Of a stretch of DNA of 64,000 nt, positions 17,949 through 60,900 are shown piece by piece. Source of the stretch: Ceratodon purpureus (Eukaryota; Streptophyta; Bryopsida; Pseudoditrichales; Ditrichaceae). Under the pieces are notes generated by a model that ran no database searches, was not told the DNA's origin, and was given only the letters and a program-made list of their open reading frames with translations. Each line of letters opens with the position of its first letter. Within the stretch, counting starts at the first letter, position 1. The stretch is from NCBI GenBank assembly GCA_014871385.1, contig CM026426.1, positions 38,781,799 to 38,845,798 of the forward strand. Reading direction: 5' to 3'. Both the position numbers and the translations under genes were made by a program.

Positions 17949-18548
17949 CTACCGAAGCAATTTCACGTCGTAGGGGCTGGGTAGTATGCTCGCTTTCATA
18001 CCCTTGTTCAAAGCACGAAAAAGATCCCTCACGGCTTTGTAATTAGCACCGTAGCCCCCATGGGACACCCCTGCTTGGTTGCAGGAAGCAAGAATTTTTC
18101 CCGCTCCTACACTTTTTCCAATTGATTTGAGGACGTTGCTGGCAATTTTTGTTTTAACATGCTCCATTGATGGTTGAGTTGCGAGGGTTAGACCTTCATG
18201 CCTAGATAGTATCTTTGCTAACGCTACAGCAGTTTTTGTTTGGGAGGCTTTATCCCCATGAAGTCGTTGGCGCTCATGCTTGACCCGGTTGTTCTCGTTG
18301 ACAGCATCCACAAGATGTGGTTGCAACACTCTTCTCATGAGCTTCACTCTGCGTTTTGCACCCGCGGTACAAGGATTCAACTCAAGAATCCATCTAAGAT
18401 AGCAAGCCCTATGTCGCAATCCCATGGGCATGTCTTTGTCAAAGTTGGCCCTCTCTAATAGACGCTCACTCTCTTCCTGCCAGCGACGCACCTCAGACTC
18501 CAAGCGCTGCACCATCATGTTATAATTTCTCTCTTTGCTGCTCATCAC
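17949..18548 (-). CDS. Element X conserved helical domain, left copy
   Basis: The frame encodes 199 residues identical to those at 28238-28837. It begins with an amphipathic helix (VQRLESEVRRWQEESERLL, coiled-coil-like), then a basic region with RHRACYLRWILELNPC and RRVKLMRRVLQP, and a glycine-rich end (AGVSHGGYGANYKAVRD). Basic helices and the repeated-element setting suggest a DNA-binding part of a transposase, but no catalytic motif is evident. The ATG lies close behind another open block (LRDELETTRGKL), so it is probably an internal part of a longer protein. Confidence 0.5.
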   Translation of the reverse strand: MMSSKERNYNMMVQRLESEVRRWQEESERLLERANFDKDMPMGLRHRACYLRWILELNPCTAGAKRRVKLMRRVLQPHLVDAVNENNRVKHERQRLHGDKASQTKTAVALAKILSRHEGLTLATQPSMEHVKTKIASNVLKSIGKSVGAGKILASCNQAGVSHGGYGANYKAVRDLFRALNKGMKASILPSPYDVKLLR

Positions 18549-19315
18549 GTCAACTTGCCACGGGTAGTCTCCAATTCATCCCGCAACTGCATGCATGTAT
18601 CCTCAATGTCCTTGTAATGGTCAAGCCTCACTCTGCTGCCAACAACCTTATTTCTCACCTTCCACCGTTTTTTTTTCAAGTTGTCTGCATTGCATTTCCA
18701 ACTCACACAGTGTAGGAGGTCCTTCAGGATCCACCTTCAATTTGCATGTATATCTGTACAGACCTTGCTTTCCATGGCATATGAATTCTAGGTAGTCCCT
18801 AAGAGTTCTGAATAGAGGTGGCTTTTTTGTTCTTGGATGAACCGGGTAAATGTTGCCATTGGTCTACAAGCCAATGTTTGTATCCCGGCTGCCCTCCGCG
18901 CTGGAAAAGTTGATGGACAGGGTTGCTCACATCGCAACAAACCTCGCCTAATAAGCGGTGCATAGCGTGCGTCAAGCAAAACCAAAAGAATGTAGCTTGA
19001 ACGCTCCGCCACTCTTGCTGCCATCAAGAGTCCAGTAATTTGAAGTAGTGCTTGAAGTTCTCAATAGCTTTGAACGGACTGCAAGTATGTAGAAAACATT
19101 CTTCTGATTGCCAAGTACCCAGAACTGCAGAGTTGTCAACAACCAAACCCTATACCATAGCCACTCAAGGAAATTGGAAAATGAAATGAAGAATATCATC
19201 TACCCTAGTACTGTGGAACACGACCTAAACTTATGATAGAGAATACGTCATTCGCAGTATATTTTGAGTCCACCCTAGTAGGAGTTACAAGAACACCCTT
19301 GCATCTACTTCTTGC

Positions 19316-19828
19316 TCAAATTTGTAATTGCTCCCAGCGGACATCTGTAAAGAAAGTGCTCAAAATTTCAGTTGTCACTCTCAACCTCGTGCGCCCTTGT
19401 GTTTGCCCAATTACCCTTGAATTCCACCTTACAATGGTGTCTTCCATTTTGCAACACTCAAATTCTAAGCACCTACATTTGTGACTGCTTCTTGTAGGTG
19501 GAGAGCTACGTCGCAGTAGCCAAGCTCCTGCATTCCTACCGTTGTACCAACAAACTTTGAAACGCCGGCTCTCGAAACCGTTGGCATCAAGAACCGAGAT
19601 TCGATAATGGAGTGATTCTTCTCCATTACTGCTCTCCTTCAAATTATGTTGCAGAGTAGTAAATTTTGGAATTCGGTTGTCTGCCAAACACACCACCCAC
19701 ATCTGCGCCAGCGAGCACTCCTCTACGCCATGCAACTCCCTTCCCACACCATTAAGGGAGGCTCTTAACTCTGCTGGCAGAATTCTAGCATCTACTGCCA
19801 CCAGCAAATGGGCCTTTGGGCAGCCCAT
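19316..19828 (-). CDS. Element X N-terminal block, left copy
   Basis: A 170-residue frame reads from near the element start. It contains YRISVLDANGFESRRFKV and a cysteine cluster (HKCRCLEFECC) that could be a metal-binding site. The right copy has the same block at about 26985-27470 but differs in a 57-bp patch at 27234-27290 that shifts its frame. Function unknown. Confidence 0.45.
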   Translation of the reverse strand: MGCPKAHLLVAVDARILPAELRASLNGVGRELHGVEECSLAQMWVVCLADNRIPKFTTLQHNLKESSNGEESLHYRISVLDANGFESRRFKVCWYNGRNAGAWLLRRSSPPTRSSHKCRCLEFECCKMEDTIVRWNSRVIGQTQGRTRLRVTTEILSTFFTDVRWEQLQI

Positions 19829-26341: not shown

Positions 26342-28237
26342 ACAACTGGAAGAGGAGCTAAAACAAATGGAACTTGGGCTTGCAATTATAGAGAAGAAGA
26401 GGAAGTTAGAGGATGCTAGTTTTGGAGGTCCATCTCAGCTAGACTCTTGATGGAGATCTAGCGACTTCAATGTTGCCCCCTCTATTGATGAAGGTGCAAG
26501 GATTGGATGTGGTCATCAAAATGACGACGATGATTTCTAGGGGCAGCGCGATTCATTTCATTCACAAAGAGGAAGTTTCATGTATTAATAACCCGGTGGT
26601 ATGCAAATGCATCCTACAAGAACAAGGACTTGTCTGCCTCTCTTTACGTACGTGCCAAGTTCCAATGAAGATGTTGTTATGCATATAGACAAGGGTTGTC
26701 TTAGCCTCTGCTAGTCTCAACTAGTTGAACTTATAAACAACCCTTTGCAGTCACCGAGGCAATTACGGAGGGTAGACCACCACTCTAAGGACATGGCTTC
26801 CCCGGTTCATAGCATAGGAGGTGAGGATGTTGACAACTTGTCGTTGCCACTTGCTATGGAGCAGTCGCTTTTGGAGGAGCAGTGTAACATTAAAGTGCCA
26901 TTAGGGGAAATTTGAGGTCACAACGGGGCCCTCCAAGGCAACCTGGGTTGAGTAAACCGGCTGCCCAAAGGTTCCTTTGCTGTAGGCAGCAGATGCCAGA
27001 ATTGTTGCCCACAGAGTTAAGAGGCCCTCTTAATGGAGTCAAAATGGGGTTGCATGGCGTGGAGGAGTGCCTAGTGGCGCCAAGGTGGCTTGGGTGTTTG
27101 GCAAACCATTGACTTCTAGCAATTATTGCCCTGCAACGGGATTTGAAGGAGAGCAGTAATGGAGAAGAATCACTCCATTATCGAATCTCGGTTCTTGGTG
27201 CCAACGGTTTCGAGAGCCGGCGTTTCAAAGTTTTCAAGCACAACAATAATACGCCCTGAAGCTTGGCCCCGTCTAAGTTGGTCTCCAACTACAAGAAGCA
27301 GTCACAAATGTAGGTGCTTAGAATTTGAGTGTTGCAAAATGGAAGACACCATTGTAAGGTGGAATTCAAGGGTAATTGGGCAAACACAAGGGCGCACGAG
27401 GTTGAGAGTGACAACTGAAATTTTGAGCACTTTCTTTACAGATGTCCGCTGGGAGCAATTACAAATTTGAGCAAGAAGTAGATGCAAGGGTGTTCTTGTA
27501 ACTCCTACTAGGGTGGACTCAAAATATACTGCGAATGACGTATTCTCTATCATAAGTTTAGGTCGTGTTCCACAGTACTAGGGTAGATGATATTCTTCAT
27601 TTCATTTTCCAATTTCCTTGAGTGGCTATGGTATAGGGTTTGGTTGTTGACAACTCTGCAGTTCTGGGTACTTGGCAATCAGAAGAATGTTTTCTACATA
27701 CTTGCAGTCCGTTCAAAGCTATTGAGAACTTCAAGCACTACTTCAAATTACTGGACTCTTGATGGCAGCAAGAGTGGCGGAGCGTTCAAGCTACATTCTT
27801 TTGGTTTTGCTTGACGCACGCTATGCACCGCTTATTAGGCGAGGTTTGTTGCGATGTGAGCAACCCTGTCCATCAACTTTTCCAGCGCGGAGGGCAGCCG
27901 GGATACAAACATTGGCTTGTAGACCAATGGCAGCATTTACCCGGTTCATCCAAGAACAAAAAAGCCACCTCTATTCAGAACTCTTAGGGACTACCTAGAA
28001 TTCATATGCCATGGAAAGCAAGGTCTGTACAGATATACATGCAAATTGAAGGTGGATCCTGAAGGACCTCCTACACTGTGTGAGTTGGAAATGCAATGCA
28101 GACAACTTGAAAAAAAAACGGTGGAAGGTGAGAAATAAGGTTGTTGGCAGCAGAGTGAGGCTTGACCATTACAAGGACATTGAGGATACATGCATGCAGT
28201 TGCGGGATGAATTGGAGACTACCCGTGGCAAGTTGAC

Positions 28238-28837
28238 GTGATGAGCAGCAAAGAGAGAAATTATAACATGATGGTGCAGCGCTTGGAGTCTGAGGTGCGT
28301 CGCTGGCAGGAAGAGAGTGAGCGTCTATTAGAGAGGGCCAACTTTGACAAAGACATGCCCATGGGATTGCGACATAGGGCTTGCTATCTTAGATGGATTC
28401 TTGAGTTGAATCCTTGTACCGCGGGTGCAAAACGCAGAGTGAAGCTCATGAGAAGAGTGTTGCAACCACATCTTGTGGATGCTGTCAACGAGAACAACCG
28501 GGTCAAGCATGAGCGCCAACGACTTCATGGGGATAAAGCCTCCCAAACAAAAACTGCTGTAGCGTTAGCAAAGATACTATCTAGGCATGAAGGTCTAACC
28601 CTCGCAACTCAACCATCAATGGAGCATGTTAAAACAAAAATTGCCAGCAACGTCCTCAAATCAATTGGAAAAAGTGTAGGAGCGGGAAAAATTCTTGCTT
28701 CCTGCAACCAAGCAGGGGTGTCCCATGGGGGCTACGGTGCTAATTACAAAGCCGTGAGGGATCTTTTTCGTGCTTTGAACAAGGGTATGAAAGCGAGCAT
28801 ACTACCCAGCCCCTACGACGTGAAATTGCTTCGGTAG
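28238..28837 (+). CDS. Element X conserved helical domain, right copy
   Basis: It encodes the same 199 residues as 18548-17949 with no difference, while the surrounding element has decayed. Immediately upstream, in another frame, lie blocks reading LLDARYAPLIRRGLLRCEQP and PRRAAGIQTLACRP-like sequence (27759-27998), which belong to the same protein family. Two identical open copies in otherwise decayed surroundings fit recent duplication or gene conversion better than selection on this copy. Confidence 0.5.
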   Translation: MMSSKERNYNMMVQRLESEVRRWQEESERLLERANFDKDMPMGLRHRACYLRWILELNPCTAGAKRRVKLMRRVLQPHLVDAVNENNRVKHERQRLHGDKASQTKTAVALAKILSRHEGLTLATQPSMEHVKTKIASNVLKSIGKSVGAGKILASCNQAGVSHGGYGANYKAVRDLFRALNKGMKASILPSPYDVKLLR

Positions 28838-30349
28838 GAGCTGAATGCCAACTTGCCACAGTTTATTGGCGAGTACTACCACGCTGAAGGAAGAATAGAG
28901 CTACCAACATTGTTGTAGAAAATCAAAAAATCGGATGAGGTGCGAAAAGAAGTAGTCTTGGATGAAAAGAATTCATTATTCATTGACCTTGAGGTGGTCC
29001 AGCAAAGCATGGTCATCTTTTATGGCATCGCAAAATCAGAGGAATCTTCCTTCAATCATATTAGTGCTTCACTGATTGTCCTTGTGGTGTGAGGAGCCGC
29101 GTTGATAGTGGACAACAGCAAAAGCTGTTTTTTATTCCATCAAACACTAATTCTCACTATCAATAATTGTGTATAGTTGGAAGGGGCTTTGTTGATTTTT
29201 ATCCTAAAACTAGACAAGGCTGAGATTGTGAATTGAAAAAAATTTGAACGTGTTACCATCACGTTGATGAACTAGGCATTGGACGCTGACATTCAGGTGG
29301 ACCATGAGAGGTACTTTTCAATACAATCCAAGCAAGAAAATTGGCCAGTTGCCACGTTCTAGGTCGAGAAGGAGTCCTATGATGTTTTGTTGTGGATTTT
29401 AAGATATCGAACTTGCCGTCTGTGATTGCAGCACAATGAACTGGGAAGAGACTACAAGTCCCTCAAGTTGGTGAATTCTATGTGGAGTGGCACCTTGCAG
29501 CAGACATGATGACAACTAAGTGCATATATGAGCTTCAATTTGGATCTGCATGTGTAATGAACCGCATATACTTGACCAAAAGAGGATTAAGCCCACAGTG
29601 GGGATAGCAAGTCAGTTAAATGTTGCATCGAAAGGTGTGGTAAAGCAAACTGGGTAGGAGGACATTTTTTGAGCAACGTAGAAGAAGAACCTTGTGACAT
29701 GACAGCATCTACTGGGTGGAGGCCTATCCTGCCAATTCCGTCATTCAGAGTGCACATTTGTACACTGCATGCCTTGGTTCGATTGATTGAGAAGATTGTG
29801 CACATGCATATCATGTACGTTTGGAACATACAGAACTAGAGGCTTAAGGCTACGGCAATTGAATTGATGGAGAAGTCGTTGTCAGCGATTCGAGCTCATG
29901 GTGGAAACGTGAAAATAAAGAGGAATCCGAAGCTCAATGGCAACATTGGAAATGTGCCATAGAAACCATCTCTTAGTGGTGTTGTTGCATGCTGATTTTT
30001 TAAGGCCAAGCATTTGGTCAGGCATTGATAAGGCCTGGAAAAATATTTGTCAAGTCGAGAATAATAATATCGGCAGTGGAGCTGACTGCATTGCAAAGGC
30101 TCAGATGTGACAAGCCTTTGAAGAGGTCCTACCATATTTGACCGGATTGGTGTTGACAGCAGACCAACGACTGCAGTTCAAACAAAAGATACACAAGTGG
30201 TGAAGGGCATATTTATAGGCCTTTCGAGAGGAGCATGTTACAAATTAGATGGTATGTTTTCTAATCCATTTTGTTGATGCTTCCGCTCTTTCTTCAAGGG
30301 CCGCTTACTTTATTTCTGTTAGTGATTTTAACTTTCGTGTTTGTCGTGA

Positions 30350-34230: not shown

Positions 34231-35260
34231 TGATTACCGTCGGAAGAGTCCAGCCCTGCGTTGCACTACTACCTATATGATCCCAAGGGTTAGGCCCATC
34301 CGCCATCCGCTTAAGCAAATCGTGTAAAACCGTTTCACACGCAACGACCTCAAATGAATCTCCCATACCTTTAGACAACTCCCTAGCAAGTACACGCTTA
34401 AGTTCCAAAGAAATGATTGAGCTTATACAACTTCAAGGACGTCTGCTAAGGTTTATATAGATTGTTGCTTGACACTTAAGCTAGGAATGGCCTTATGTAA
34501 AGACCGAGAATTCTTTGACCAAGACAAGCAGTCTGATTTGGTATACATCTTGGTTTCAGGTACTCCATTATTGTACACGAACTCTGAAATATTCCACGAA
34601 CTTTTAAGACCATTTCTTTTTGTTTGTTTCGAGTTTTCTTATTCCTAGAATTCTCTATATTATCTAAGAACATCATGCTGGAATACTCGTATCTAGATCC
34701 AATAAGGGACCAAATCTAAAGGATTTAATGCATGACGTCATCATGACATCAGCCCCAATTTGTACCTCAATAAACAAACGTAAGAAATTATTACCAGCAA
34801 TAACCCTGAATTCCACGGTAATATACTCTTTTCCTAAAAATAAGTAACAAAATCATGCCTTATTTTAGTAATTTTCTACGGTTATAGGGTCCACTTTGCT
34901 TTTGAAAATTTGGCTAATTGTCATTTCTGTGCTCTCCATTCTATGCTCTCCGCTCTCCGCTCACATACAAACTTTCCCCGCGGTATGCTGTGGCGCTGGT
35001 CGCCTGCCGTGCTCCTCCGCTGTTCTCCCTTATCCCTGCCTTTGCGAAACTGCTCTCCACCTGCAGTCGGTGGGTTGTGGTGCCGAGCTGATGTCCCGCT
35101 GCTCCTCCATTCCAAACCCTCCTTCTCGTGTCACTGTGGTGCTCTTCTTGCTCCCGGTGACTTGCGGTGCTGGGCTAATGCCGTGGTCACACGCTGTGTC
35201 CTTCTATCCCCGCCTTAATGGAGCTTCGCTTCTCCTGCTCTCGGTGGATACCGGGCTCTC
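34231..35260. other. Spacer
   Basis: A short minus-strand frame at 34408-34208 (ELKRVLARELSKGMGDSFEV) may be a gene remnant. From 34900 to 35260 the sequence is C/T-rich with CTCTCCGCTCTCC words. No other feature is supported. Confidence 0.35.
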
Positions 35261-35860
35261 CTCCTCCTTATCCTTCAGCAAGCCATAAAACAGGTAGAGG
35301 TGGTAGAGAAAAGGGGTGATTGGGGTCGGCTTCTTTCCGATCAAGGGCACCATTTTCTGCACGGTTTCCGCTATGAGTGCAGCCCAATTCACCGGACGCT
35401 CCTTAGTGTACGCTCCGAGGATGGTGTTTTCGACCGTGATGGTGACCTGTTCCGGTTTCAACGGATACAGGATCGGAACGAGGAAGGCTAGGACCTGTCT
35501 CTGTCTCCTATCCTTGCAGGCGTCTATCACGTATCCATTGTTCTTATGGATCTTCCCGTGGAACCTATTCTGTATGTACTTATCCGTCCGGGTTGCCCAA
35601 AGGAGTCCGTTCCGCTCGAAGTCGTAAACTTCCGCCCACCTTTCCGCACTCCACAGCGTGGGCTTGGCCCGGATTGTATTGTCCCATCTATTGACCGGTC
35701 CTTCCAGGATCTCCATCACCATTGCCTCATCCTTCAGCAACCAAGGCCGTGACAACAAACCCTCGCACCTCATCCGGGTGAGATCGTCAATCAACTCGTT
35801 CATCGCCGACTCTTTCTCCGGAGTGGCGGGGCTAAGAACTCTACACTGAACGTGCGACAT
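35261..35860 (-). pseudogene. LTR-borne ORF of LTR-B (N-terminal part)
   Basis: From the ATG at 35860 the frame follows the LTR-C and LTR-D proteins: CRVLSP near the start, RWDNTIR near residue 60, W-x-E-x-YDF, then DRRQRQVLAFLVPILYPLKP near residue 115 and TPFLYHLY near residue 195. It stops being similar where the LTR is cut. Same protein family as 41-43 kb and 45-47 kb. Confidence 0.6.
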
Positions 35861-36010
35861 TGCTACGCCTTACTTCTCTCCCTTTACAATCCGACAGCAA
35901 GAAACCCGGCAATCCAACTGCCAGTGAATCGGAAAAGACAAGACACCTCACCGCTCTTTCACTCTCTACTACCAGTCCGCAAAAAGGATCTCCAAATTCT
36001 AACACTCCCA

Positions 36011-36020
36011 CTTAAATACC
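36011..36020 (-). promoter_or_regulatory. TATA box of the LTR-B ORF
   Basis: GGTATTTAAG on the minus strand lies about 155 bp before the ATG at 35860, the same spacing as in LTR-C and LTR-D. Confidence 0.5.
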
Positions 36021-36210
36021 CAGAGCATCATAAAGGCTAAGGCGGCGCGTAATTGCAGCCGCCACCGTACCGAGCTCGGCACCTATCCGAGTTATGATGA
36101 CTTCCGCGTTGTTTCGGATCCTAGACGCGGTTACAGTAACGGTCAGTTCTCGGATCGTCGACCCGTTCCGAGTTTTTCTCTTTCGAGTTCTGGGATCAAG
36201 GTTCCTAGAA

Positions 36211-36950
36211 GGGGGAGAGCACAATAAAGTGGACCACAATGTGCAATATGTGATCACTAAGAAGTGAATATGAAGTGTGCTGTTTTTTAAAGCTCAAAGC
36301 TGATTTTGAGCATTCTGGTGAAGTTTTTGAGCATTTTAGTCACTTTCTAGGGTGTCGTAAGGTATCTTATACGCATCTTCATGAAAAGAACATCCTCAAT
36401 TGAAACTAAATTTGACCACTAGTTCTAAATCATGAAAATGAACTTTTCCGAAGTCTTGATTTCTTCATTTGGTGCGCACTATTGTCTTTAGAGGATGTTT
36501 TTTCCAATTTAAAAAACAATGTTCGGTGAAAAAAAACTCACAAAAAGTACTGCCAAAGTGACCCTCCCAAAATACATCCTAGATATACTTCTCGTTCGTC
36601 CACACTTTCGAACGAAGTGGATGGTGCCCATTTCCACGACCACAATTCACGAACGGAGCGCACCATCCGCTCGAAAGTGTTTTCTGACAAGGTTTGCACT
36701 CTTTTCTAGCCACTTTTTCAAATGACTGCATTCACTTTGTCGCACTTTGAGGTACTCGTAGGGCATCGTAAACACCTTACCTTCTTATGCAAATTTCTAG
36801 GACTCAAGATGACCGAGTCTATTTTCTATATCTCATCCCGCTTTCAACATATCAAAAACTTATATGGCACTTTTCTTAGTGTTTACAACAATGGCTGAAA
36901 TTGGCAATGAGCTAAGCACTTTTGTGGTCCACTTTATTGTGCTTCCCCCC
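36211..36950. mobile_element. 740-bp TIR element inserted in LTR-B
   Basis: The left end GGGGGAGAGCACAATAAAGT and the right end, reverse-complemented, GGGGGGAAGCACAATAAAGT continue into the shared GGACCACAA, an inverted repeat of about 28 bp. The surrounding sequence matches intact LTR copies, which shows it is an insertion. No clear target duplication was found; TTA/TTC at the borders would hint at a PIF/Harbinger type but do not match each other. Inside, arms at about 36602-36627 and 36659-36680 (ACACTTTCGA ... TCGAAAGTGT) form a second inverted repeat. No coding frame. Confidence 0.7.
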
Positions 36951-37128
36951 ATAATACTTCCGGCGTTAACTGTTTTAAGGTTCCTGGAGTATCCGGTTTG
37001 TGCTAACCCTTAATGCGGCTAGTGCCTAGCTAGTTTTTACCTAATTAACCAAAAAAATTGAAAATTTAATGAGATTCTAACTCCAGATGGGGCTTTTCGG
37101 GTTTATTCTGAGTTTCTCGGATCCCACA

Positions 37129-40390: not shown

Positions 40391-40753
40391 CATTGTGTGG
40401 GATACGAGAAACTCAGAATAAACCGGATAAACCCCAACCGGTGTTAGGATTCAAATAATTTTTCATTTTTTGGTTAAATAGGTAAAAACTAGCTAGATAC
40501 TAGCCGCATTAAGAGTTAGTACAAACCGGATGCTCCAAAACCTTAAATCTGTTAACACAGGAGATGTTCTCAGATCTTAATCCCGGAACTCTGAAGAGAA
40601 AACTCGGATCGGGTTGACGTTCCAAGAACTGACCGTTACTGGTACCGCGTTCGGGATCCGAAACAACGCGGAAGTCATCATGACTCGGATAACGCTGAGC
40701 TCGATACGGTGGCGGCTGCAATTACACGCCGCCGCGGCGTTTATGATTCCCTG

Positions 40754-40763
40754 ATTATATAGG
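40754..40763 (+). promoter_or_regulatory. TATA box of the LTR-C ORF
   Basis: ATTATATAGG lies about 155 bp before the ATG at 40915. A GC-rich stretch with the CCGCCGC word lies just upstream, and the leader GTGTTAGGGTTTGGAGTTCC is conserved in LTR-D. Confidence 0.6.
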
Positions 40764-40914
40764 CGGGAGTGTTAGGGTTTGGAGTTCCTTTTTGCGGACT
40801 GGGAGTAGAGAGTGAAAGAGCGGTGAGGTGTTTTTGTCTTTTCCGATTTACTAGCAGTTGGATTGCCGGGTTTCTTGCTGTCGGTTCGCAAAGGGAGAGA
40901 AGTGAGACGTAGCT

Positions 40915-43125
40915 ATGGCGCCCGTTCAGTGTAGAGTTCTCAGCCCCTCAGTTCCGAGGGTTGAGCGGGAAATGAACGAGTTGGTTGACGATCTCACCGG
41001 AATGAGGTGCAAGGGGTTGCTTACACGACCTTGGTTGCTGAGGGATGAGGTGATGGTAATGGAAATCCTAGAAGGGCCGGATAATAGGTGGGATAACACA
41101 ATCCGAGGCTGACCTACTCAGTGGAGCGCGGAAGTATGGGCCGAGTGTTACGACTTCGTGCACGAAGGACACCTTTGGGCAACCCGAACGGAGAAGTACG
41201 TGCAGAATAGGTTCCACGTGAAGATCCATCAGAACGGGAAGAACGGATTCGTGATAGACGCCTATAAGGATAGGAGACAGAGACAGGTATTAGCCTTCCT
41301 CGTTCCAATCCTGTATCCGTTGAAACCGGAACAGGTCACCATCACGGTCGGAAACACCATCTTCGGAGCGTACACGGGTCAGCGTCCGGTAAACAGGGCT
41401 GCACTCATGGCGGAAACTGTGTAGAAGTTGGTGCCCACGATCGGAAAGAAGCCAACTCTGATCACCCCTTTCCTCTATCACCTCTACCATTCCGGTGGCT
41501 TGCTGATCGATCACAAGGGAGAGAAGTACACGATCGGGAAGAATCTCCTCACCTTCGAGGAGGTTCCGGCGGGGTTTGAGGTAGAGCATCACGAGGATGA
41601 CTTGGATACGGCGTCCACGGAAGGGGGAGAGGACACGAAGATAATTCCGAATCCCACCCCGACGAAGGCCCATTCCAAGTCACGATTGGAACGAGCCACA
41701 TTGCAAGACGTGGAACCTTCCACGGCCCAAGATGACACGGCACGGAAAGAGGTCAGTTCCGAGCGAGGGTTTCCGGTTGACCCGTTCCAATCACTTAGGG
41801 AAGGAACTCATCAGGCCCAGGCCACTTACAAGTGGATCGAGTCACTGTTCCGGAGGGTCTGCACATCACTAGGAGGCTGTGCACCAAAGGAGGTTATCCA
41901 GGAGGTCGAGCTTCTGAAGGATGCACCAAAGTTACGGGGCGAGAAGCAGCGGCTGGAGCTTCAGATCAAGGAACTTACCTCGGAACTGGCAACGAAGAGC
42001 GAGGAGATCCGTAAATTCCACGTCAAACAGGAGGAGACCTTGGATGAGATCCGGAAGTTGGTGGGAGTTTCGAGCGATGTAGTCAACAAGGCCCGGTTGT
42101 TCGATGAGAACGTGATGGAGTCGGCTCACTTGCAAGATCGAGAGAGGATCATCACGATCATGTCCAAATTTGAGTTCTCGATGAGCAAGACTTTGAAGAT
42201 GATGAAGAAGCTGCTCAACCCAGGAACCGGAAGTCCCAGCGTCGGAATGAGATTTCCCGGATCTGCCTCTCGGACAGTGGTAGGGGAATCTCGTGGGGCG
42301 GAGTTCAGGACCCCACAGGAGCGACATCTCCGGTTTGAGGAGGAGAGGGCTATTGATTTGGACATTTTTGCACCGGCTCGGACGATCGCGGATCTGATAC
42401 GAGAGCATGTGGCCAAGGAGGCGTCACCCGGAGTCAGTGTTGCTCATCAAAGCTGCGCGATTTACACTGGGCAGGCATAGGTTGCGGGAACCACAGTCAC
42501 CGTGAGGCAATCCGAGGAACAAACAGTTACGGAAGAGGTGACCCGGACCACGCAACCAATCGTTTCCCCAACGGTAGGGCCAGCTTTGATTATTCGAGTT
42601 CATCAAGGAGAGGTAGCCGAGAGCAAATGGAGGAGATCCTTTTCACCACCCGAACATACCCAAGTGACTCAGGAGGGGACACTCACTCCTTCACCCACGG
42701 CCCGGACCAAGACTGTGACTCCGACTTCGACCGTAATGCCCGTCGCGGAATCTCCAGCTGATTCTTCTGGTGCTAAGCGGGTTCTGAGGAAGAGACAGGA
42801 TCCCGAGGAGAAGGGAACGATTGAGATTTCTGGATCTGACTCGGATACCTATGGGAGTTCTCCGGTAGGGACAGCCGGAACTGAGACCCGGACCCCGACA
42901 TCCGGAACTCCTCCCTCGAGGGTTATCTCCAAGTCTCCCAAGTTTCCCAAGACCCGGGTTGTTATCCGATCTTCCTTGGACACCAAGTAGAAGGGGACAA
43001 AGGAAGAACGGAGTGTTGGACGTCATGCGGATTGTGCAGGGAAGGTAGGAGGATCCAAGCCACGAACGACCCGGTCGAAGGGGAAGGAGAAGGAGCAGGA
43101 GAGCCACAAGAAGACAAAAATAGGA
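40915..43125 (+). pseudogene. LTR-borne ORF of LTR-C
   Basis: The protein pattern runs in this order: CRVLSP start, a helical segment with RCKGLL, RWDNTIRG, a W-x-YDF segment, DRRQRQVLAFLVPILYPLKP, VTITVGNTIFGAYTGQRPVN, TPFLYHLY near residue 200, an acidic linker, a long coiled coil (KEVIQEVELLKDAPKLRGEK onward, 41880-42180), then a P/S/T-rich tail with repeated PTPT-like words and a basic end. The N-terminal half resembles plant transposon-associated domains (Transposase_32 type); the coiled coil suggests self-association. Role in the element unknown. Broken. Confidence 0.6.
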
Positions 43126-43290
43126 TAGATTCCTCGCCCTGCAACTGCCAGTCACTTTCCGGAATTATAGGAGTAGGTATCGGACCGGCGAGATCCAGAT
43201 TAACTATAAAGTAGGATTCTAGGTAGATGATTAGGAATTAGGGTTTTTGATTGAACTTTTGGCGCCGCCGCTTTTGTGAAAGCCCCTGCT

Positions 43291-43300
43291 TACTTAAAAG
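43291..43300 (+). promoter_or_regulatory. Second TATA-like box of LTR-C (genomic transcript)
   Basis: TACTTAAAAG sits in a strongly conserved block (GAAAGCCCCTGCT before, GGGGAAGGCGATGCA after) and is followed 30-60 bp later by a T-rich region with ATATTCCGTATCAGTAAAG. The same block occurs in LTR-D (47247) and, inverted, in LTR-E (49441). I infer it starts the full-length RNA. Confidence 0.5.
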
Positions 43301-44051
43301 GGGAAGGCGATGCAACTGGGTCTTCGTTTCGCATGTTTTCTTCCTATATTCCGTATCAGTAAAGTATTCGTGTTTTGCAAGTACTGTGCGTGGTTTCTAG
43401 CTAAGTGTGAATGATCCGAGAGGGTGTTGAGAGTTCCGCTATGGTTTGGATAGGAAGGTGATGGAAGTTGTGACGAGACCCGAATTGGAATGGTACTGAG
43501 ATTGAGCGGAAAGATTGAGCGGGTCGTCATAGGAGTTGAAGCCTAACTGTTCTGTTCCCACTTCAGCCTCACGCGGAATAACCGTCGCTAGGGTCGAAGC
43601 GGATCGAGGGGTACTTGATCGGGCTCCCTGAACTTCTGAAGAGGTTTCGCACTCTGTGAAAGGGGGATTCGGAAAGTGGTATGGGTCACCTAGGGATAAC
43701 CGGATCTTGGTTCTTTCAGATCTGGATCCGTTTGTCGTTGTAGTCTCACGGATCGGAAGTGGCCGCGTGTGTGACCTCCTGGCCAGAGTGTTCTAAGTCA
43801 GTTGTGAAGTAGCATCCTTTCCGAGACGTTGGGGTTTATTGACTAAACACCGGAGGTAACAGAGAAGAGTAGAAGAGTTACGTTTCGAAATTACTATCCG
43901 AGCAGTGAGGAGGCTCGGAACAATTGTAAGTAACTACCTGACAAAGCACTATTGAATCCCTGGACAATACTTGGAACCGAGTTGACAATACAAGAGTTTA
44001 CGCTTGTTTTGAGTGTTATTCAGATGTTAAGTGAGTTTCCATGTTCCGACA

Positions 44052-44355
44052 CATTGAACCGGCCATCTCACATAGGCCGGATAATCACCCACTGTGCAAA
44101 TGATCATTGCCTTCATCACAAAGTGGAACAATCTCCTGTAGTTTGATGCATCCATGCAGTAAATTTTGTCAGTCCACAACTCCAACACTTCATCAATCAA
44201 TGGATCAAGATAAACTTTGAATTGTTATTTGGTGAGGGACTTTGAGCCTGGAATTAGAATAGCTAGCATCACAAAGTATTTCTTTGTTGACAGCCACGCA
44301 GGTATACTGTAATTCAACAGTAGCACTGGCCTTAGGGAGTAGACACTGCGCTTGT
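44052..44355 (-). pseudogene. CACTA-3 TNP2 transposase fragment, part 1
   Basis: On the minus strand from 44355 the frame reads YSIPAWLSTKKYFVMLAILI, then PGSKS, then VYLDPLIDEVLELWTD, then FHFVMKAMIICTVGDYPAY. This matches the TNP2 core in order: NLPPW, LSLLIPG, the V-Y-L-x-PLI-x-EL-x-LW motif, and the LRA-x-x-x-T-x-NDFPAYG motif; the acidic residues of the PLIDE segment are kept. One in-frame TAA lies after PGSKS. It was cut on the left by LTR-C and on the right by LTR-D. The gene runs on the minus strand, opposite to both LTRs. Confidence 0.8.
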
Positions 44356-44720
44356 TGTGGGATCCGAGAAACTCAGAATAAACCGGAAAAGCCTCATCCG
44401 GAGTTAGTATTCCAATAATTTTTCATTTTTTCGGTTAATTAGGTAAAAACTAGCTAGACACTAGCTGTATTAGGAGTTAACACAAACCGGATACTCCAGA
44501 AACCTTAAAACAGTTAACGTAGGAAGTATTCTCGGAACCTGGGTTCCGAAAACTCGGAAGAGAAAACACGGAACGGGTGGACGATCCGAGTACTGACCGT
44601 TACTGTAACCGCGTCAAGGATCCGAAACGACGCGGAAGTCATCATGACCCGGATAGGCGTCTAGCCCGGTACGGTGGCGCCTGCAATTATAGGCCGCCGC
44701 AGCGTTTATGATGCCTGGGG

Positions 44721-44728
44721 TATATAAG
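44721..44728 (+). promoter_or_regulatory. TATA box of the LTR-D ORF
   Basis: TATATAAG, the best TATA of the set, lies about 155 bp before the ATG at 44880. Confidence 0.65.
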
Positions 44729-44879
44729 CGAGGGTGTTAGGGTTTGGAGTTCCTTTTTGCGGACTGGGAGTAGAGAGTGAAAGTGCGGTGAGGTGTTTTT
44801 GTCTTTTCCGATTCACCGGCAGTTGGATTGCCGGGTTTCTTGCTGTCGGATCGTAGAGGGAGAGAAGTAAGGCGTAGCA

Positions 44880-47086
44880 ATGTCGCACGTGCATTGTAGA
44901 GTCCTTAGTCCCGGTACTCCGGTGAGGGAATCGGAGATGGAAGAGCTGATCGCCGACCTCACCCGGATGAGGTGCCAGGGGTTGTTGTCATGGCCGTGGT
45001 TACCGAAGAGTGAGGTGATGGTGAGGGAGGTCCTGGATGGGCCGGACAATAGGTGGGATAATACGATCTGAGGCAAGCCCACGCTGTGGAATGCGGAACA
45101 GTAGGCGGCAGCTTACGATTTCGAGCAGAACGGGCTCCTCTGGGCGACCCGGACGGATAGATACGTGCAGGATAGGTTTCACGGGAAGATCCATAGGAAT
45201 AATGGATACGAGATAGATGCCAGCAAGGATAGGAGGCAGAGGCAGGTCTTAGCCTTCCTCGTTCCGATCCTGTATCGGCTGAAACCGGAACAGGTCACCA
45301 TTACGGTCGGGAACACCATCCTCGGAGCGTACACGAGGGAACGTCCGGTGAATTGGGCCGCACTCATGGCGGAAGTTGTGCAGAAGATGGTGCCAACGAT
45401 CGGAAAGAAGCCGACCCCGATCTCCCCTTTCCTCTTCCACCTTTACAAGGCGTATGAGTTGCTGAGCGATAAGGAGGAAGAGACTTATACGATGGCGAAG
45501 AACTTCCTCAGCTTTTCAGAGATTCCGCCCGGAATGGAAGCTGATCCACGGGGCGAAACCTCGGATACAGCGTCCACGGAACAGGATGACGATACGGCGG
45601 TCATTCCGAACCCCGGGACTACTAGGGCTCAGTCCAGGTCACGATCGGAGCGCGCTGCGTCGCAGCACGCGCAGCCTTCCACGGTCCGGGGAGATACGGA
45701 ACGGAGGGAGGTCAGTTCCGAGAGGGGATTTCCGGTGGAGCTATTCCGGGGGATTCGGGAGGAGACCCATCGGGCGCAGGCCTCTTACTATCCGATCGGG
45801 ACACTGTTCCGGAGAGTCTGCACATCTCTGGGAGGTTGTTTACCGGAGGAGGTGATCCGAGAGGTGGAGTTGTTGAAGGACGCCCCGAAACTTCAGAGTG
45901 AGAAGAAGGAGCTGGAGCTTCAGTTGCAGGAGCTGACGAAGGAACTGGCGGCGAAGAGCGAGGAGATACGGAAGTTCCATGCCAAACAGGAGGAGACCTT
46001 GGGGGAGCTTCGGACGTTGGTAGGGAGTTCGGGTGCGGTAATCAACAAGGCCCGGCTGTTCGATGAGAACGTATTGCAGCCTGCAGATTTCGAGAACAAG
46101 CAGAGGATCATCATGATCCTCTCCAAATGAGAGCACTCGATGAACCAGATTCTGAAGAAGGTTCGGCAGCTGCTCAATCCGAGTGTCGGAAGTCCTAGTA
46201 TCGGAACCGCTGGTCGGAACCTTCCGCTCCCCGGATCTCCTTCTCGGACCGTTGTAGGAGAATCACGAGGGGTAGGGTTCCGAACCCCAATAGACGTAAC
46301 CTCCAGCTTGAGGAGCGGATGGCAGTCGACGCGGACATCTTGAAGACGAACCGGACGATCGCGGAGAAAATCCGGGAGCACCAAGCACAGGTGGCATCAC
46401 CCGGAGCCAGTATGGTCCAGCAGAGCTGCGCGATCCCCACCGGTCAGGCGGAAGTTACCGGAACTACAGTGACCGAGAGGCGGATCGAGGAGCGGACGGT
46501 AACGGAGCAGGTGACCCGGTCCGTGCAGCCGGATGTTCTTCTACGACTCGGAACGGGGGTGATCATCGCGGATTACCAAGGGGAGATAGCGGGAACGGAA
46601 TGGGGACGAGCCATTTCACCAACCGGACGGACCCAAGTGACTCAGGAGGGGGGACTTACCCCTTCACCCACAGCCAAGACCGGAACGGTGACGCCTACCC
46701 CCACCGGAACGCCAATGGTGGACTCACCTGCTGACAGTTCCGGTGCTCGGAGAGTTTTGACGAAGAGGAAGGAGCCGGCGGTGAAGGGCACCATTACGAT
46801 TTCAGAGTCCGACTCGGAGACTTATGCGAGCTCTCCGGTTGGGACAGCCGGAACTAGGACTCGGACTCCTACGACCGGAACCCTTCCCCCACATATGATA
46901 CCGAAGTCTCCCAAGTCTCCCAAGAACCGGATCGTTACCCGGCTGTCCTTGGAAACCAAGGCGGAACGGAGTGCTAGGCGTAAGGCGGAGCCAGCAGCAG
47001 GGGTAGGAGGATCCGAGTCGCGGGTGACCCGGTTGAAGGAGAAGGATCGCGAGCAGGAGAGCCACAAGAAGACAAAGATGGGGTAG
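44880..47086 (+). pseudogene. LTR-borne ORF of LTR-D
   Basis: This is the least damaged copy of the LTR protein, with about three breaks. It shows the same order as LTR-C: CRVLSPGTP start, RWDNTI, an YDFEQNGLLWATR segment, DRRQRQVLAFLVPILYRLKP, TPISPFLFHLYKAYELL, an acidic linker, the coiled coil (KEELELQLQELTKELAAK-like, 45840-46130), a P/S/T-rich linker with TPTPTGTP, and a charged tail ending ESHKKTKMG. The tail is nearly identical to the one in LTR-E. Many ACCGG and CCGGA words give it a codon use unlike the AT-rich surroundings. Confidence 0.65.
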
Positions 47087-47246
47087 ATTCCTCTCGCTGC
47101 CACTGGCCGTCACTTTCCGGATTTATAGGAGTAGATTCCGGATCGCGAGATCCGGTTTAGTCGAAAAGTAGAATTCTAGGTAGATAATTAGGGATTAGGG
47201 TTTTGATTGAACTACCGGCGCCGCCGCTTTTGTGAAAGCCCCTGCT

Positions 47247-47256
47247 TACTTAAACG
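47247..47256 (+). promoter_or_regulatory. Second TATA-like box of LTR-D
   Basis: TACTTAAACG within the block shared with LTR-C and LTR-E, preceded by GAAAGCCCCTGCT. Confidence 0.5.
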
Positions 47257-47732
47257 GGGAAGGCGATGCAGTCCGGGTCTTCGTTTTGCATGTTTTCTCC
47301 CTATATTCCTTATCAGTAAAGTATTCGTGATTTGCAAGTACTGTGCGTGGTTTCCCGCTAAGTGTGAATGATCCGGGAAGGATATGAGAGTTCCGCTGTA
47401 GCTCGGATAGGAAGGTGATGGGAGTTGTGACGAGACCCGAACCGGAAAGGTAATGGGATTGAGCGGAAAGATTTCGTGGATTGTCGTAGGAGTGAAGCCT
47501 CACTGTTCCGTCCCCAACCCAACCTCACGCGGAATAGCCGTCGCTAGGGTCGAAGCGGATCGAGGGGTACTTGATCGGGCTCCCTGAACTTCTGAAGGGG
47601 TTCCGCACACTGTGAGAGGGGGATTCGGAACGTGCACGGGTCGCCTAGGGATAATCGGATCCTGGTTCTCCCAGATCCGGATCGGTTTGTCGTTGTAGTC
47701 TCACGGATCGGAAAGGATCGTCTGTGTGGCCT

Positions 47733-48638
47733 CCTGTAGTGTAGCGGGTGGGTTTGTCGGATCTGAAACCCCATCTCCTCTGGGAATCCGGCGACAAACA
47801 ATTCCACTTGTACAGTTGGAGCTATGGTCGTGGTGAGTTTCTGTATGAACGCCTTCACTCTCTGACTGTACTTCCGTACTGACTCAGTAGATCTCATCGT
47901 CATCCGGCTCAACTTTCTGAGTGCGCGAGCTTCTCCTCCGGCTTCACGGAACGTACGTTGGAACAAGGTAACGAAACTGGTCCAGTCGTTACGTGTACGT
48001 TCCGGAACGTCTTGGTACCACTGTAGAGCTTCTCCCTTCAGGAGACCTTGGAATATCCTCCTCTTCGCATCCGGGTCCTCCTGGTTGGCCTGAGCGATGG
48101 ATTCGAACTCACAGAGCCATTTGTCCACGTCTTGACTTCCGTCACCTTTGAATCTCCTGTACTTCAGTCGGGTAGAGGGGGCCATCGGATTGTCTTCCTC
48201 GTCCTCTTCTGCTTCCTCGGTCTCCTCCTCGACTCCCGCGTCGGCTTCGACTTCGTCGGCTACGATTTCTTCTCCTTCCGGATCCTGAGCTACACCCCCT
48301 CCGGCTGCTGAGGTTCCGGCCAAGGATACCACGATCATGTCTCCTTCTCGTTCTACAGCTGTCTGGATCCGGGGTAGCAGATTCGTACCCGGTAGATCGT
48401 GTACCGAAACCCTACCCCTCGTTTGTAGCAACCGAGTGGATCTTCTTCCTCCTAACTCATCCGGTTGCGCCCCAACCATGGAAAAGATTGGGAGTTCTTC
48501 TTCCGACTCCTCGGAAGGCTCGATTTTTGCGTAAGACTTCCGTCTACCTAATATCCACCTAAATGAAGCCTTCACTGTCTGGCTCCACTTTTCTTCAAAT
48601 CTGCACTCGCTTATCTTCAAAGTATCCACTTGGTTCAC
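47733..48638 (-). pseudogene. Ty3-type gag gene of the D/E element
   Basis: On the minus strand, just inside the primer site, the frame starts with a helical segment, an acidic stretch (EEETEEAEEDEEDN) and then a good Retrotrans_gag domain at about residues 155-300: FKGDGSQDVDKWLCEFESIA, FQGLLKGEALQWYQDVP, SFVTLFQRTFREAG, and VRKYSQRVKAFIQKL. These are the hallmark helices of Ty3/gypsy capsid. The domain ends near 47736, where the sequence passes into antisense LTR-D. No zinc knuckle or pol follows. Capsid part looks open; the element as a whole is broken. Confidence 0.8.
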
Positions 48639-48650
48639 AGCTTACCGAAT

Positions 48651-48667
48651 CCCCGGCAGCGGCGCCA
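48651..48667 (-). other. Primer-binding site, tRNA-Asp type
   Basis: TGGCGCCGCTGCCGGGG on the minus strand lies 10 bases inside the LTR-E end. It resembles the TGGCGCCGTTGCCGGGG site of plant Athila/Tat-type Ty3 elements, which I recall as complementary to the 3' end of tRNA-Asp; one base differs. Confidence 0.75.
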
Positions 48668-48677: not shown

Positions 48678-49847
48678 TGTCGGAACACGGAAACGCACCT
48701 AACGTCCGGATAGTACTCTAATTGAGCGTAAACTTCCGTATTGTCACTAGGTTCCGAGTATCGTCTAGGGATTCAATAGTGTTTCACCAAGTAGTTACTC
48801 CTAATCGTTCCGAGCCTTGCCACTGCTCGGATAGTGTCTCCGGAACGTAACTCCTCGACTATCTCTCTCTCTCTTTCTCTTTCTCGTCAGGTGTTTCGTC
48901 CACAAACCCCAACGTCTCGGAACAGCTACCGTCTCACAACTGTCCTAGAGTACTCTGGCCTGCAGGTCACGCAGACGACCGCTTCCGATCCGTGAGACTA
49001 CAACGACAAACCGATCCGGATCTGGGAGAACCAGGATCCGATTATCCCTAGGCGACCCGTGCACGTTCCGAATCCCCCTCTCACAGTTTGCGGAACCCCT
49101 TCAGAAGTTCAGGGAGCCCGATCAAGTACCCCTCGATCCGCTTCGACCCTAGCGACGGCTATTCCGCGTGAGGTTGGGTTGGGGACGGAACAGTGAGGCT
49201 TCACTCCTACGACAATCCACGAAATCTTTCCGCTCAATCCCATTACCTTTCCGGTTCGGGTCTCGTCACAACTCCCATCACCTTCCTATCCGAGCTACAG
49301 CGGAACTCTCATATCCTTCCCGGATCATTCACACTTAACTGGAAACCACGCACAGTACTTGCAAAACACAAATACTTTACTGATAAGGAATATAGGGAGA
49401 AAACATGCAAAACGAAGACCCGGACTGCATCGCCTTCCCCGTTTAAGTAAGCAGGGGCTTTCACAAAAGCGGCGGCGCCGGCAGTTCAATCAAAAGTCCT
49501 AATCCCTAGTTATCTACCTAGAATCCTACTTTTCGAATAATCCGGATCTCCCGATCCGAAACCTACTCCTATAAATCCGGAAAGTGACGGCCAGTTGCAG
49601 CGAGAGGAATCTACCCCATCTTTGTCTTCTTGTGGCTCTCCTGCTCGCGGTCCTTCTCCTTCGACCTGGTCATCCGTGGCTCGGATCCTTGTGCCCTCGC
49701 TGCCCGCTCCGCCTGACGCCTAGCGCTCCGTTCCGCCTTTGACTTCTTCGTCTGGGCCTCCCAGGAAAGCCGGGTGACGACTCGGTTCTTGGGAGACTTG
49801 GGAGACTTCGGCAACATATGCGCGGGAGGGGTTCCGGACGTAGGGGT
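48678..49847 (-). mobile_element. Long-LTR fossil, copy LTR-E (right part, cut by CACTA-2)
   Basis: It ends at 48678 on the minus strand with GTTCCGACA, next to the primer site, so it is the 5' LTR of the element that carries the gag at 47.7-48.6 kb. It holds the U5/R part, the TACTTAAAC box (about 49441-49450) and the end of the LTR-borne frame (ESHKKTKMG at about 49611). At 49847 it is interrupted by CACTA-2; the rest should lie beyond the window. Confidence 0.8.
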
Positions 49848-50010
49848 CACTAGTAGAATCCTTTGAAAAAATGACCCACTTAATGACCCAAAACCGAGTC
49901 ATTTCGGACCGTTTGAATATGAAATGACCTACGAGGTCTGGGTCATTCCGGACCGGTCATTCTCTGAACAGGGTCATTCCGGACCAATTTAACCCAGGCG
50001 CCAGCGACTT
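49848..50010. repeat. CACTA-2 left TIR and subterminal repeats
   Basis: After the CACTAG terminus, GGTCATTCCGGACC-like words occur in both orientations: GAGTCATTTCGGACCG, GGGTCATTCCGGACC, ACCGGTCATT and GGGTCATTCCGGACCA, at about 10-25 bp spacing. Such arrays bind the TNPA-type protein. Confidence 0.75.
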
Positions 50011-57980: not shown

Positions 57981-60900
57981 GTATGCTTTCCCCGTGAGAT
58001 CATAAATGCAGCATTTTTCAAATTCATATGTGGAATGTGCGATTCTGTACAAGCGTTTGTTTTAATGCATTTTCCCTTCGTTGACTTCAATAAATGTGTG
58101 ACTGTCTTCTACAGGGACTTCAGTTCCAGTCCATGGACGAAGAGAGAGTGAGAGACTCTAAAGCGTTAGAAGAGGCTGTTCGTCACCTGTACCAGGGATC
58201 ATGCAACTCGAAGCTAGGAGCAACCATAATGTTGGTTAACGTAGTCGCCACGCACCCAGGAATCACGGAAAGAGCTGCGGACGATATATTCACTACAGTG
58301 AAGAGTCTACTTCCACCGGATAACTGCTTGCCGTCGTCACTGTACCAAGCCAAGACCTTGACAAAACGACTTGGCCTCGACTTCAAAAACATAGATGGTT
58401 GTCCGAACGGGTGCGTGCTCTATGACCAACCAGAAACAATTAATCTCGACCGATGTCCTACCTGCAGCGCTCAACGGTATAAGGACATGTTCAACACATG
58501 CAGACCATTGAAGGTGCTCAGATTCTTCCCCCCTACTCCACGGCTACAGAGATTTTTCAGAATCCCTGTCTTGTCGAAACTGATGAGGTGGCATAAGGAG
58601 AACGAGAGCACAGATGGTAGAGCCAGGTATCCCGCAGACTCAATGGCATGGAAGGCGTTGGATACCATGGACCCAGCTATATTTGATACAAAGGGATTTG
58701 GTGAAGAAGTTACCGATGTACGTCTCCAGATATCGTGCGACGGAATATGCCCATTCAAGCTGCACAAGTCTACATGGTCAGCCTGGCCGGTTATTGCCAC
58801 GATCCTGAATTTGCCGCCATGGTTAATCACGAAGAAATTCTTTACTATTCTAACTCTACTCATCCCAGGCAGATCACAGGTTCCCTTCGAATATTTCAAT
58901 GTATGGCTACGGCCGTTGATTGATGAGATGAAGGTTTTATGGGATGGTGTTCCATCGTATGCTGTCTTGAGAGAAGAGGGAGATCGACACTTTAGGCTGA
59001 GAGCTGCAGTTTTATACACAACCCATGATTTTCCGGGTTATGGCACTGTTTCCGGCACTTCTCACCAAGGCTTTGTGGCCTGTCCTCCTTGCGGTCCCCA
59101 GCTTCGAGGACGCTACGCTCACGAGAGTAGAAAATTAACGTACAGGGACGCTCGACGGTGGTTGAGGCCGGATCACTACCTCCGGACAGAAGGGTACAAC
59201 TCATTGTTCGATGGACTCCCAGAGGATAGAATGCGACTTGTTCCTGTAACACCAGCGCAGCAGCGTTCTGCGCTGCATCGGTACCATGCCTGGCTTGGAA
59301 GACGTGGACGACGAACTCCTTGTCAAGAGCACACTTCTCAGCAGCAGGCGAGATCGCAAGCAGCCACTGGTGAAGCGAATGCATCTTCTTCACATGGTAA
59401 TTCGTCTCTAAATGCAGCAGCTTCTACTGTGCGCGAACGTTCCAAAACACGTGGACGAACTATGTCGAAGAAGACGACTAGGAGGAAACGTTCATCACCA
59501 GATCCTTCAAAAGTGGATGGCGTCAAACGGAGCAGCATATTCAGTGAATTACCGTATTGGGAGGTCAGTTACGTTTTTTTTAATTATCGTATATCATTTT
59601 TTAATCCCCCTTTCTGGAAGAAAGTTTTGTTGTGATATATGAAGTGCGAATCAGACAGTCTGCCTCGATGGTCTTGTGTATTGGAGAATAGGACCGAAAA
59701 CTTATTTGAAGGTGATCCGAGATCTGCTAAACAAACTTTTTCAGAGTTGGAAAAAATGACATGTTGTGGTTGGTTCTGTATTTCTTAATTGAACTAATCG
59801 ATATTGTTCCAACGTAACTCTGCATAGAAAAAGCTTGGTATGATTGTTTGTTGCCTCTTTGATTCAAATCTTTTCATTATTAATTCTTTTTTAACTAAAA
59901 TGAACAATTTCATTTTAGATTACTGTCAGACATGTGGGCATACGTGTAAATGATTTACATGAAGTACACAGTTTGGTTAAGGAATATGCCCATTCTTCCT
60001 CCAATTCAGTGATTGTCACTGGCCTATGGTAGTAATGCGGTGAATCCGCTGGTTAATGAAATGGATTTGTAAAAGTTATAATCTTATACGAGAATGAATA
60101 CTGCGAGACTTAATTTCTTCCCAAAACACACTGATATTTTGAGAGACATTCCTCGTTTATAAGTGTATCAATATCTCTTAAGGGTCACTCTGTTCAGGTT
60201 TGTATGATTGAGTCAAGTGAATGTTTTGAACTTTCACATGTGAAATCCGGTTTACTCTAAGTCAGTTGGCTTACTGGGGTACAATTCATCTTCGCTGCCG
60301 TATAACATGTTTTTTCCTCACTTTACAGTACATGTGCCACAGGACACTAAGAATTCGATGTAACAGAATTTTATGTATGATTTAAATTTTCTGTTGCTCG
60401 ATTCATCTTGCTTCATGGCATCATGTTTTAACGGACTGTGCTTTCGTTTGCAGCATCTACTGATACGGAACACATTGGATATCATGCACTGCGAAAAAAA
60501 CTTTGCTGAGAACCTTCTTAAGACAATATGTGGCTGTAAGGAGAAGGACTCTGTATAAGTCCGAAGAGATATGCAGAGGGAGGGAATTCGAAGACATTTA
60601 TGGATGGTACGAGACCCAAGAAACTCCTCTAGGATGTTGAAGCCGGTGGCGAATTACGTTCTTACAGCAAAGGAGTTTGATACATTCTGTACCAGGTTAG
60701 AGAACTTAAAAGTCCCCTCCGAATACTGTTCAGAGTTAGGTGGCCACATTAGAAACAAAAAATTCAGTGCTCTGAAATCGCATGATTACCATATACTAAT
60801 GCAGACTTTGATTCCTCTGGCTCTGAGGGGGCTTATGGAGCCCAAAACCCGGATGGCTATAATGAGATCCTGCAGAATATTCAGACGACTATGTTGCAAG

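Follow-up and report, generated by a model that had tools for sequence, protein, structure and literature searches.

The window analysed here, a 64,000-bp stretch of Ceratodon purpureus DNA (C6:38781799-38845798), contains a solo long terminal repeat (LTR) of a Ty3/gypsy retrotransposon family with a protein-coding gene inside it. The LTR lies at 40396-44051 on the + strand (3656 bp), opens with TGTGGGATACG, closes with GTTCCGACA and is flanked by CATTG both on the left (40391-40395) and on the right (44052-44056). An earlier note on this DNA had described TGTGGG...CCGACA ends and a CATTG target site duplication (TSD) here, and both were present. Together with the homologous boundaries of other copies described below, this confirmed that 40396-44051 is a solo LTR of a family (family B) whose 3.65-kb LTR carries a gene in sense orientation.

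The gene occupies 40915-43128 (+), running from an ATG at 40915 to a TAG at 43126-43128, with 737 codons in phase. The earlier note had reported a frame of about 700 codons; its coding phase was upheld and its length was not, intact copies having about 740 codons. The window copy has decayed to a relic: it keeps the coding phase and has in-frame stops at codons 66, 170, 522 and 692. The two promoter-like boxes which had been described before and behind the frame were both found: a TATA box TATATAGG at 40756-40763 (+), which we measured at 159 bp 5' of the ATG and which reads TATATA in 26 of 31 aligned rows, and a TATA-like box TTACTTAAAAGG at 43290-43301 (+), which reads TTACTTAA in 28 of the 31. 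The first is presumably the promoter of the LTR gene and the second that of the genomic RNA, with the border between the U3 and R regions presumed to lie shortly downstream of the second.

Position of the gene inside the LTR

A genome search was made with 351 residues of the window protein as the query; 116 of its 1240 first-look candidates were scored, and every one of these, including the window copy, was listed as a match. We read the boundaries of 20 copies with long matches, out of 30 loci returned (one being the window copy), and exact 5-bp TSDs stood at homologous ends in 13 of these 20 copies read at both ends. One copy had a duplication matching at 4 of 5 bases within a G-rich run (L025), two had no duplication visible at their boundaries (L026 and L034) and the 3' end of one was not found (L022). 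In two copies the LTR end ran into a stretch resembling a primer binding site (PBS) and then into gag-like sequence (L019 and L030, the PBS being mutated in L030), and the purine-rich tract TGAAAATGGGGTAA stood before the LTR in L016 and L030.

The position of the gene was given by complete elements. An array of the form LTR-internal-LTR-internal-LTR on C10, with the TSD GTATT, has three LTRs of 3653 bp which are 99.9% identical, and in each of them a frameshift divides the gene into pieces of 159 and 589 amino acids (aa). In the first internal region of the array, gag (PF03732, with a zinc knuckle) is followed by reverse transcriptase (RT), RNase H and integrase, which is the gypsy order. Only 36 bp separate the end of pol from the LTR, leaving room for little but the purine-rich tract TTTGAAAATGGGGTAA. 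The domain scan of family B (L062) placed PF03732 and PF00098 in one frame and PF00078, PF17917, PF17921 and PF00665, in that order, in the next.

When the 589-aa piece was used as a query, 1906 first-look candidates and 74 scored matches with at least 98% identity were obtained, including the three query LTRs. Among the 74 matches listed, 72 had no stop listed, and an open reading frame (ORF) of 734 aa was listed for 70. Fifty-two of them formed 25 same-strand arrays (23 pairs and 2 triples, the query array included) with a spacing of 9,710-9,714 bp, and 22 stood single among the matches listed. An LTR-PBS junction pattern (at most 3 mismatches) occurred at 110 places genome-wide (control 0), and for 35 of the 100 junctions listed the distance to a listed ORF match was constant. 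The regular arrays and fixed junction distances therefore place the frame within the LTR itself, twice in each complete element; it is also left behind in solo LTRs. This agrees with the earlier note, since complete elements of family B and of a second family, A, carry the frame in both terminal repeats, and an internal gene between shorter LTRs was thereby ruled out.

An LTR-start pattern, again with at most 3 mismatches, was found at 522 places (control 0). If each junction marks one two-LTR element, approximately 300 LTR starts are unpaired, a rough figure, since the search overlooks decayed ends and neighbouring elements of an array have an LTR in common. A first pattern search had proved too loose, with 98 and 112 matches against 30 and 28 in the controls. 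By ORF spacing, triple-LTR arrays were seen at C1:18184118-18205306 and C10:13325894-13347080, the latter with one TSD at its outer ends.

Family A is represented in the window by a solo LTR at 1-5471 (+; TSD TTAAG), which begins 475 bp left of the window. Its gene is in two parts, the first of 353 codons at 114-1172 (+) and the second at 3590-4412 (+), the aligned stretch of the second part being interrupted by a single in-frame stop. The two parts are separated by an insert of ~2.4 kb at ~1170-3590, which has inverted ends CACTAGAG(C/T)AGAACAG and a 3-bp duplication CAC and which we take to be CACTA-like. The earlier note had called this LTR a distant version of the family-B LTR, and it proved to be a diverged relative at the protein level (BLASTP with the N-terminal domain: 2e-29, 33% identity; family A and B proteins: E 9e-32, 30% over 250 aa), with no blastn match between the window family-B LTR and a family-A LTR. 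The first 353 codons of the window family-A gene, used as a query, yielded 1509 first-look candidates, of which 115 were scored. Both ends were read of a complete family-A element on C6, whose two LTR genes lie 9,377 bp from each other: it has the TSD GTGGC, two LTRs of 3512 bp which are 99.94% identical, an intact 621-aa ORF in both, the PBS TGGCGCCGCTGCCGGGGATC, the purine-rich tract GGTCAAAAAGGGGTAA before its 3' LTR and, after the PBS, a frame which was seen and not domain-scanned.

The elements of the two families thus have the hallmarks of Ty3/gypsy retrotransposons: near-identical TG...CA direct repeats with a 5-bp TSD (the C10 array and the C6 family-A element), a PBS, a purine tract and, in family B, gag followed by RT-RNase H-integrase. 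The order of features within the LTR is the same in the measured copy of each family, the TATA box, ATG, stop, second box and LTR end being at 366, 524, 2744, 2907 and 3680 in a family-B copy (L068) and at 380, 589, 2452, 2649 and 3512 in a family-A copy (L073).

Complementarity suggests that the families are primed by tRNA-Asp. A PBS of sequence TGGCGCCGCTGCCGGGGAT follows the 5' LTR, and the first 19 nt of TGGCGCCGCTGCCGGGGATTCG, which lies at 48646-48667 (-), 10 bp past the LTR end CCGACA of the copy at 48678-49848, are complementary to the 3' end of tRNA-Asp(GTC) plus CCA. A 22-nt tRNA pattern, made from the reverse complement of the family-A PBS minus CCA plus a T-loop motif, had 59 matches in the genome (control 0), and ARAGORN predicted tRNA-Asp(GTC) with a matching 3' end at 2 of 3 loci scanned, the third containing only tRNA-Asn and tRNA-Gly. 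The same test with the family-B ending had 0 matches, family B being complementary over 19 nt and then differing. tRNA-Asp-like 3' ends were also seen mostly every 1,676 bp at C11:11007903-11054618, probably a tRNA-bearing tandem array.

Selection on the gene and its decay

We compared the true reading frame with the two other frames as a control for chance. Among the window copies, the ratio of non-synonymous to synonymous substitution rates (dN/dS) was 0.286 in frame over 680 codons (1.23 and 1.25 off-frame) and 0.386 over 205 codons (1.01 and 0.83 off-frame). Median values were 0.327 for 31 copies (464 pairs) against 1.05 and 1.20 off-frame, and 0.305 for 38 copies (702 pairs) against 1.106 and 1.282; a pair was dropped if it covered under 300 codons or had dS below 0.02 (one pair in each set), and as pairs share history they are not independent tests. 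For family A, five comparisons gave 0.36-0.45 in frame against 1.04-1.61 off-frame, and the second part of the window family-A gene gave 0.445 against L073. Stops per copy numbered 0-11 in frame and 21-40 in the other frames (31 copies), and the commonest indels among these copies were of 6 bp, with one- and two-base indels also occurring. A lack of excess synonymous change among family members would have refuted the earlier note; the excess was clear in the sets of 31 and 38 copies and in six copies with open frames. These comparisons show that the LTR gene evolved under purifying selection in two families without blastn similarity. A chance open frame was ruled out by the in-frame and off-frame dN/dS values and the stop counts.

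Six copies (L063-L068), selected from the listing for their long open frames, had dN/dS values of 0.25-0.43 (15 pairs). Their protein is 740 aa long in L063, L065, L066 and L068 and 735 aa long in L067, the ATG being lost in L064, and an exact 5-bp TSD was found in five of the six, the 5' end of L066 being missing. Four copies (L063, L065, L067 and L068) have an intact frame in an LTR with an exact TSD, and thus intact genes do sit in TSD-flanked single LTRs. The earlier claim that the frame survives in every solo LTR was not borne out, as the four stops of the window solo LTR illustrate, and most older copies examined have broken frames, the window copy included. Because median dN/dS falls from 0.374 in the closest pairs (17 pairs, dS < 0.15) to 0.279 in the most distant (180 pairs, dS > 0.6), selection seems to operate chiefly during the replication of lineages, copies decaying once they are inserted.

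Possible function and origin of the LTR protein

The part of the protein which aligns between families A and B is the N-terminal ~250 residues. The middle looks rich in charged helices of a heptad-like kind, coiled-coil-like by eye, and the tail is rich in S, T and P and strongly basic, with an isoelectric point (pI) in L068 of 10.4 for residues 601-700 and 11.3 for residues 701-740. Our best inference is that the LTR encodes a nuclear, multimeric, nucleic-acid-associated accessory protein. A PDB sequence search gave 0 matches.

Membership of Transposase_32 (PF20167, a putative plant transposon protein), raised in the earlier note, found no support, as no LTR ORF scanned had a profile match. 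Genome-wide, the profile gave 20 places below cut-off (best E 0.008), none of them, by eye, among the listed LTR ORFs, and the Pfam scans and this search together ruled the assignment out. Four of the sub-cut-off places were read and represent a third family, C (L079-L082), for which a search gave 825 first-look candidates, 104 of them scored. The frames that contain the family-C ORF reach 2,696 aa, and in L082 the ORF comes after an apparent pol C-terminus in one frame; no repeated same-strand spacing was seen by eye among the matches listed. Its likeness to the LTR protein is weak and lies around the motif GE.VNW..L...PFL (hhalign probability 38%, E 3e-4; best BLASTP 8e-4), and hmmsearch with a profile of the LTR N-terminal domain found 0 of the 4 family-C ORFs. 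Five family-C places on different contigs (C2:14201872, C5:7193620 and others) had identical scores.

On balance, we favour the reading that the Ty3/gypsy LTR, probably in its U3 region, holds a complete sense accessory gene with its own promoter in any LTR, the product of which acts in trans for the family. The upstream TATA box would drive a separate mRNA for the LTR protein from any LTR and the downstream box would drive the genomic RNA, while the protein may act in the nucleus, perhaps on the chromatin of LTRs, on transcription or on the export of RNA. Such an LTR may have arisen when the polypurine tract shifted upstream of an accessory ORF which once followed pol, after which later cDNAs would carry the ORF as U3 sequence in both LTRs. 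The family-C ORF, which apparently follows pol in one frame, makes this origin plausible, and the idea of a tract shift, which can be tested, would explain how LTRs come to contain genes.

Several observations weigh against this reading. No family reached cut-off in Pfam scans of the LTR proteins, which therefore indicated no function, and a structure model of the N-terminal domain from three window sequences had a predicted local distance difference test score (pLDDT) of 37. The copy at 48678-49848 had a dN/dS of 0.655 (1.18 and 1.45 off-frame), over 32 codons only, and gag had a dN/dS of 0.12 (180 codons, one comparison), below that of the LTR gene. At least one in-phase stop was present in 30 of 38 copies. 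Finally, the ORF is frameshifted in all three LTRs of the young C10 array, meaning that the protein is either dispensable in cis or supplied in trans, and the array fits both.

A stronger form of the trans-acting reading is possible and, in our judgement, is not the expected outcome. Here the LTR would be a self-contained mobile gene, with promoter, ORF and terminator in U3-R and with the tract-shift origin, and solo LTRs would keep supplying a nuclear trans regulator of the whole family. If this is true, the regulator could be an activator, an anti-silencer or a copy-number brake, its solo-LTR suppliers would lie above all on the presumed non-recombining U chromosome, and recombinational loss of the element body would leave it in place.

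The alternatives to the favoured reading are not all mutually exclusive. The frame could lie in R rather than U3, in which case the first box would be the genomic-RNA promoter and the protein would be translated from the 5' end of the full-length RNA, ahead of gag, with no mRNA of its own. That box is the closer of the two to the TATA consensus, and few non-coding parts are as well conserved as the sequence from it to the ATG, but we consider this placement doubtful, as both families, whose DNA cannot be aligned, have a second box behind the stop, and R would exceed 2 kb with a poly(A) site presumably ignored in the 5' LTR. It is unlikely that the protein is structural or env-like, serving in particles or in cell-to-cell movement and not in the nucleus: if the gene is in U3 it would follow pol on the genomic RNA, which is the env position, but its tail is basic (pI 10.4 and 11.3 in L068) and, as an analogy only, a nuclear location is reported for GENE23, an internal accessory protein of Grande (PMC7264820). 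We consider it very unlikely that the protein has been domesticated, with solo LTRs serving the host and selection acting on solo copies; several TSD-flanked LTRs do retain the full frame, but the 8 of 38 copies without a stop comprise the six picked for open frames, one with promoter and ATG deleted (L010) and one frameshifted (L060), and the closest pairs have the highest dN/dS, which is what decay of inserted copies would produce. The idea that shorter LTRs enclose the frame as an internal gene, or that it belongs to a separate transposon, so that its assignment to the LTR would be an artefact, can be practically dismissed because of the complete elements, which together with the LTR-PBS and purine-tract junctions make the whole unit the terminal repeat, and because TSDs flank it directly in 13 of 20 copies and 5 of 6 more, even though so long a coding frame is unusual for an LTR and additional ORFs of plant elements are reported from the internal region (PMC7264820).

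A land-plant LTR of 3.5-3.7 kb thus holds a selectively kept gene. LTRs are usually regarded as non-coding DNA with a regulatory role, and a solo LTR as a dead remnant. With a gene kept in the LTR, solo-LTR formation strips gag-pol and leaves the accessory gene; a possible regulator would be decoupled from the replication genes, which may bear on the persistence of the family on a sex chromosome. Repeat masking may also hide a protein family here (1240, 1906 and 1509 first-look candidates, largely unscored).

The nearest precedent is the LTR-encoded superantigen of mouse mammary tumour virus (MMTV), the known case of a coding LTR, which is described as exceptionally long because it encodes the accessory protein sag (PMC3026287). 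Endogenous MMTV copies have mostly mutated virion genes and an intact sag in almost all cases, and the RNAs from which Sag is made are spliced and start in the 5' LTR or in env (PMC3026287). The moss LTR likewise has an accessory ORF inside it which is kept in inserted copies; in contrast, MMTV is a vertebrate retrovirus with an LTR of ~1.3 kb and the moss LTR has a TATA box upstream of its ORF. The comparison with Sag concerns the arrangement of the LTR.

A 2020 review describes the additional ORFs of plant elements as internal, most often between pol and the 3' LTR (PMC7264820). Grande, RIRE2, Retand, Athila and PvRetro13 share with the moss elements a conserved extra ORF besides gag-pol, which in Grande (gene23) has its own promoter, but their ORF is internal whereas the moss ORF occurs twice per element and in solo LTRs (PMC7264820). 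The rice elements Retrosat2, RIRE3 and RIRE8 have long LTRs (> 3.2 kb; ~3 kb) and an ORF0 of unknown function, but this is upstream of the gag-pol ORF and is not described as LTR-internal in the available part of PMC3485330. No plant retrotransposon with an LTR-encoded gene turned up in the open-licence literature, judged mostly from titles and the starts of abstracts. One literature candidate for a coding LTR turned out to be a host gene within an element.

Chromosomal setting and other features of the window

C6 is 110,524,308 bp long and makes up 30.5% of the 362.5-Mb assembly. The sex chromosomes of C. purpureus are reported to be 110.5 Mb (U) and 112.2 Mb (V) (PMC9273592), from which we infer that C6 is the U chromosome. 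Among the matches listed, 87 of 116 older-type copies and 36 of 74 young copies were on C6, as were 33 of the 100 LTR-PBS junctions listed (of 110). In these truncated lists, C6 is thus enriched in older-type copies and not in junctions. Older copies seem to be retained on the sex chromosome, which we offer as a lead only.

The window contains three further family-B LTRs, to which the earlier note had ascribed the same layout; the copies exist, and all are partial. The second, at 44356-47736 (+), has lost its 3' end and its frame has 3 stops and a frameshift. The third, at 48678-49848 (-), has lost its 5' part and its 3' end is joined to an internal region, where a gag frame stands just downstream at 47733-48641 (-; Retrotrans_gag PF03732, E 1.8e-12, scanned as 47547-48641). 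The fourth, at 35257-37128 (-), comprises the first part only (promoter box region, ATG and ~200 codons) and contains a MITE-like insert of ~0.75 kb at ~36200-36960, with inverted ends around GCACAATAAAGTGGACCACA. The opposite-strand family-B LTR pieces at 47201-47732 and 48964-49495 are 98% complementary and nearer to each other than to other window copies.

An inverted repeat with 1.6-kb arms at 17893-19526 and 27260-28893 was also found, the arms being 99% complementary, 7.7 kb apart and each containing the same 208-aa open frame; this is a young palindrome on the presumed U chromosome. At 58094-59635 there is a 513-aa frame which matches Transposase_21 (PF02992, E 5.5e-48).

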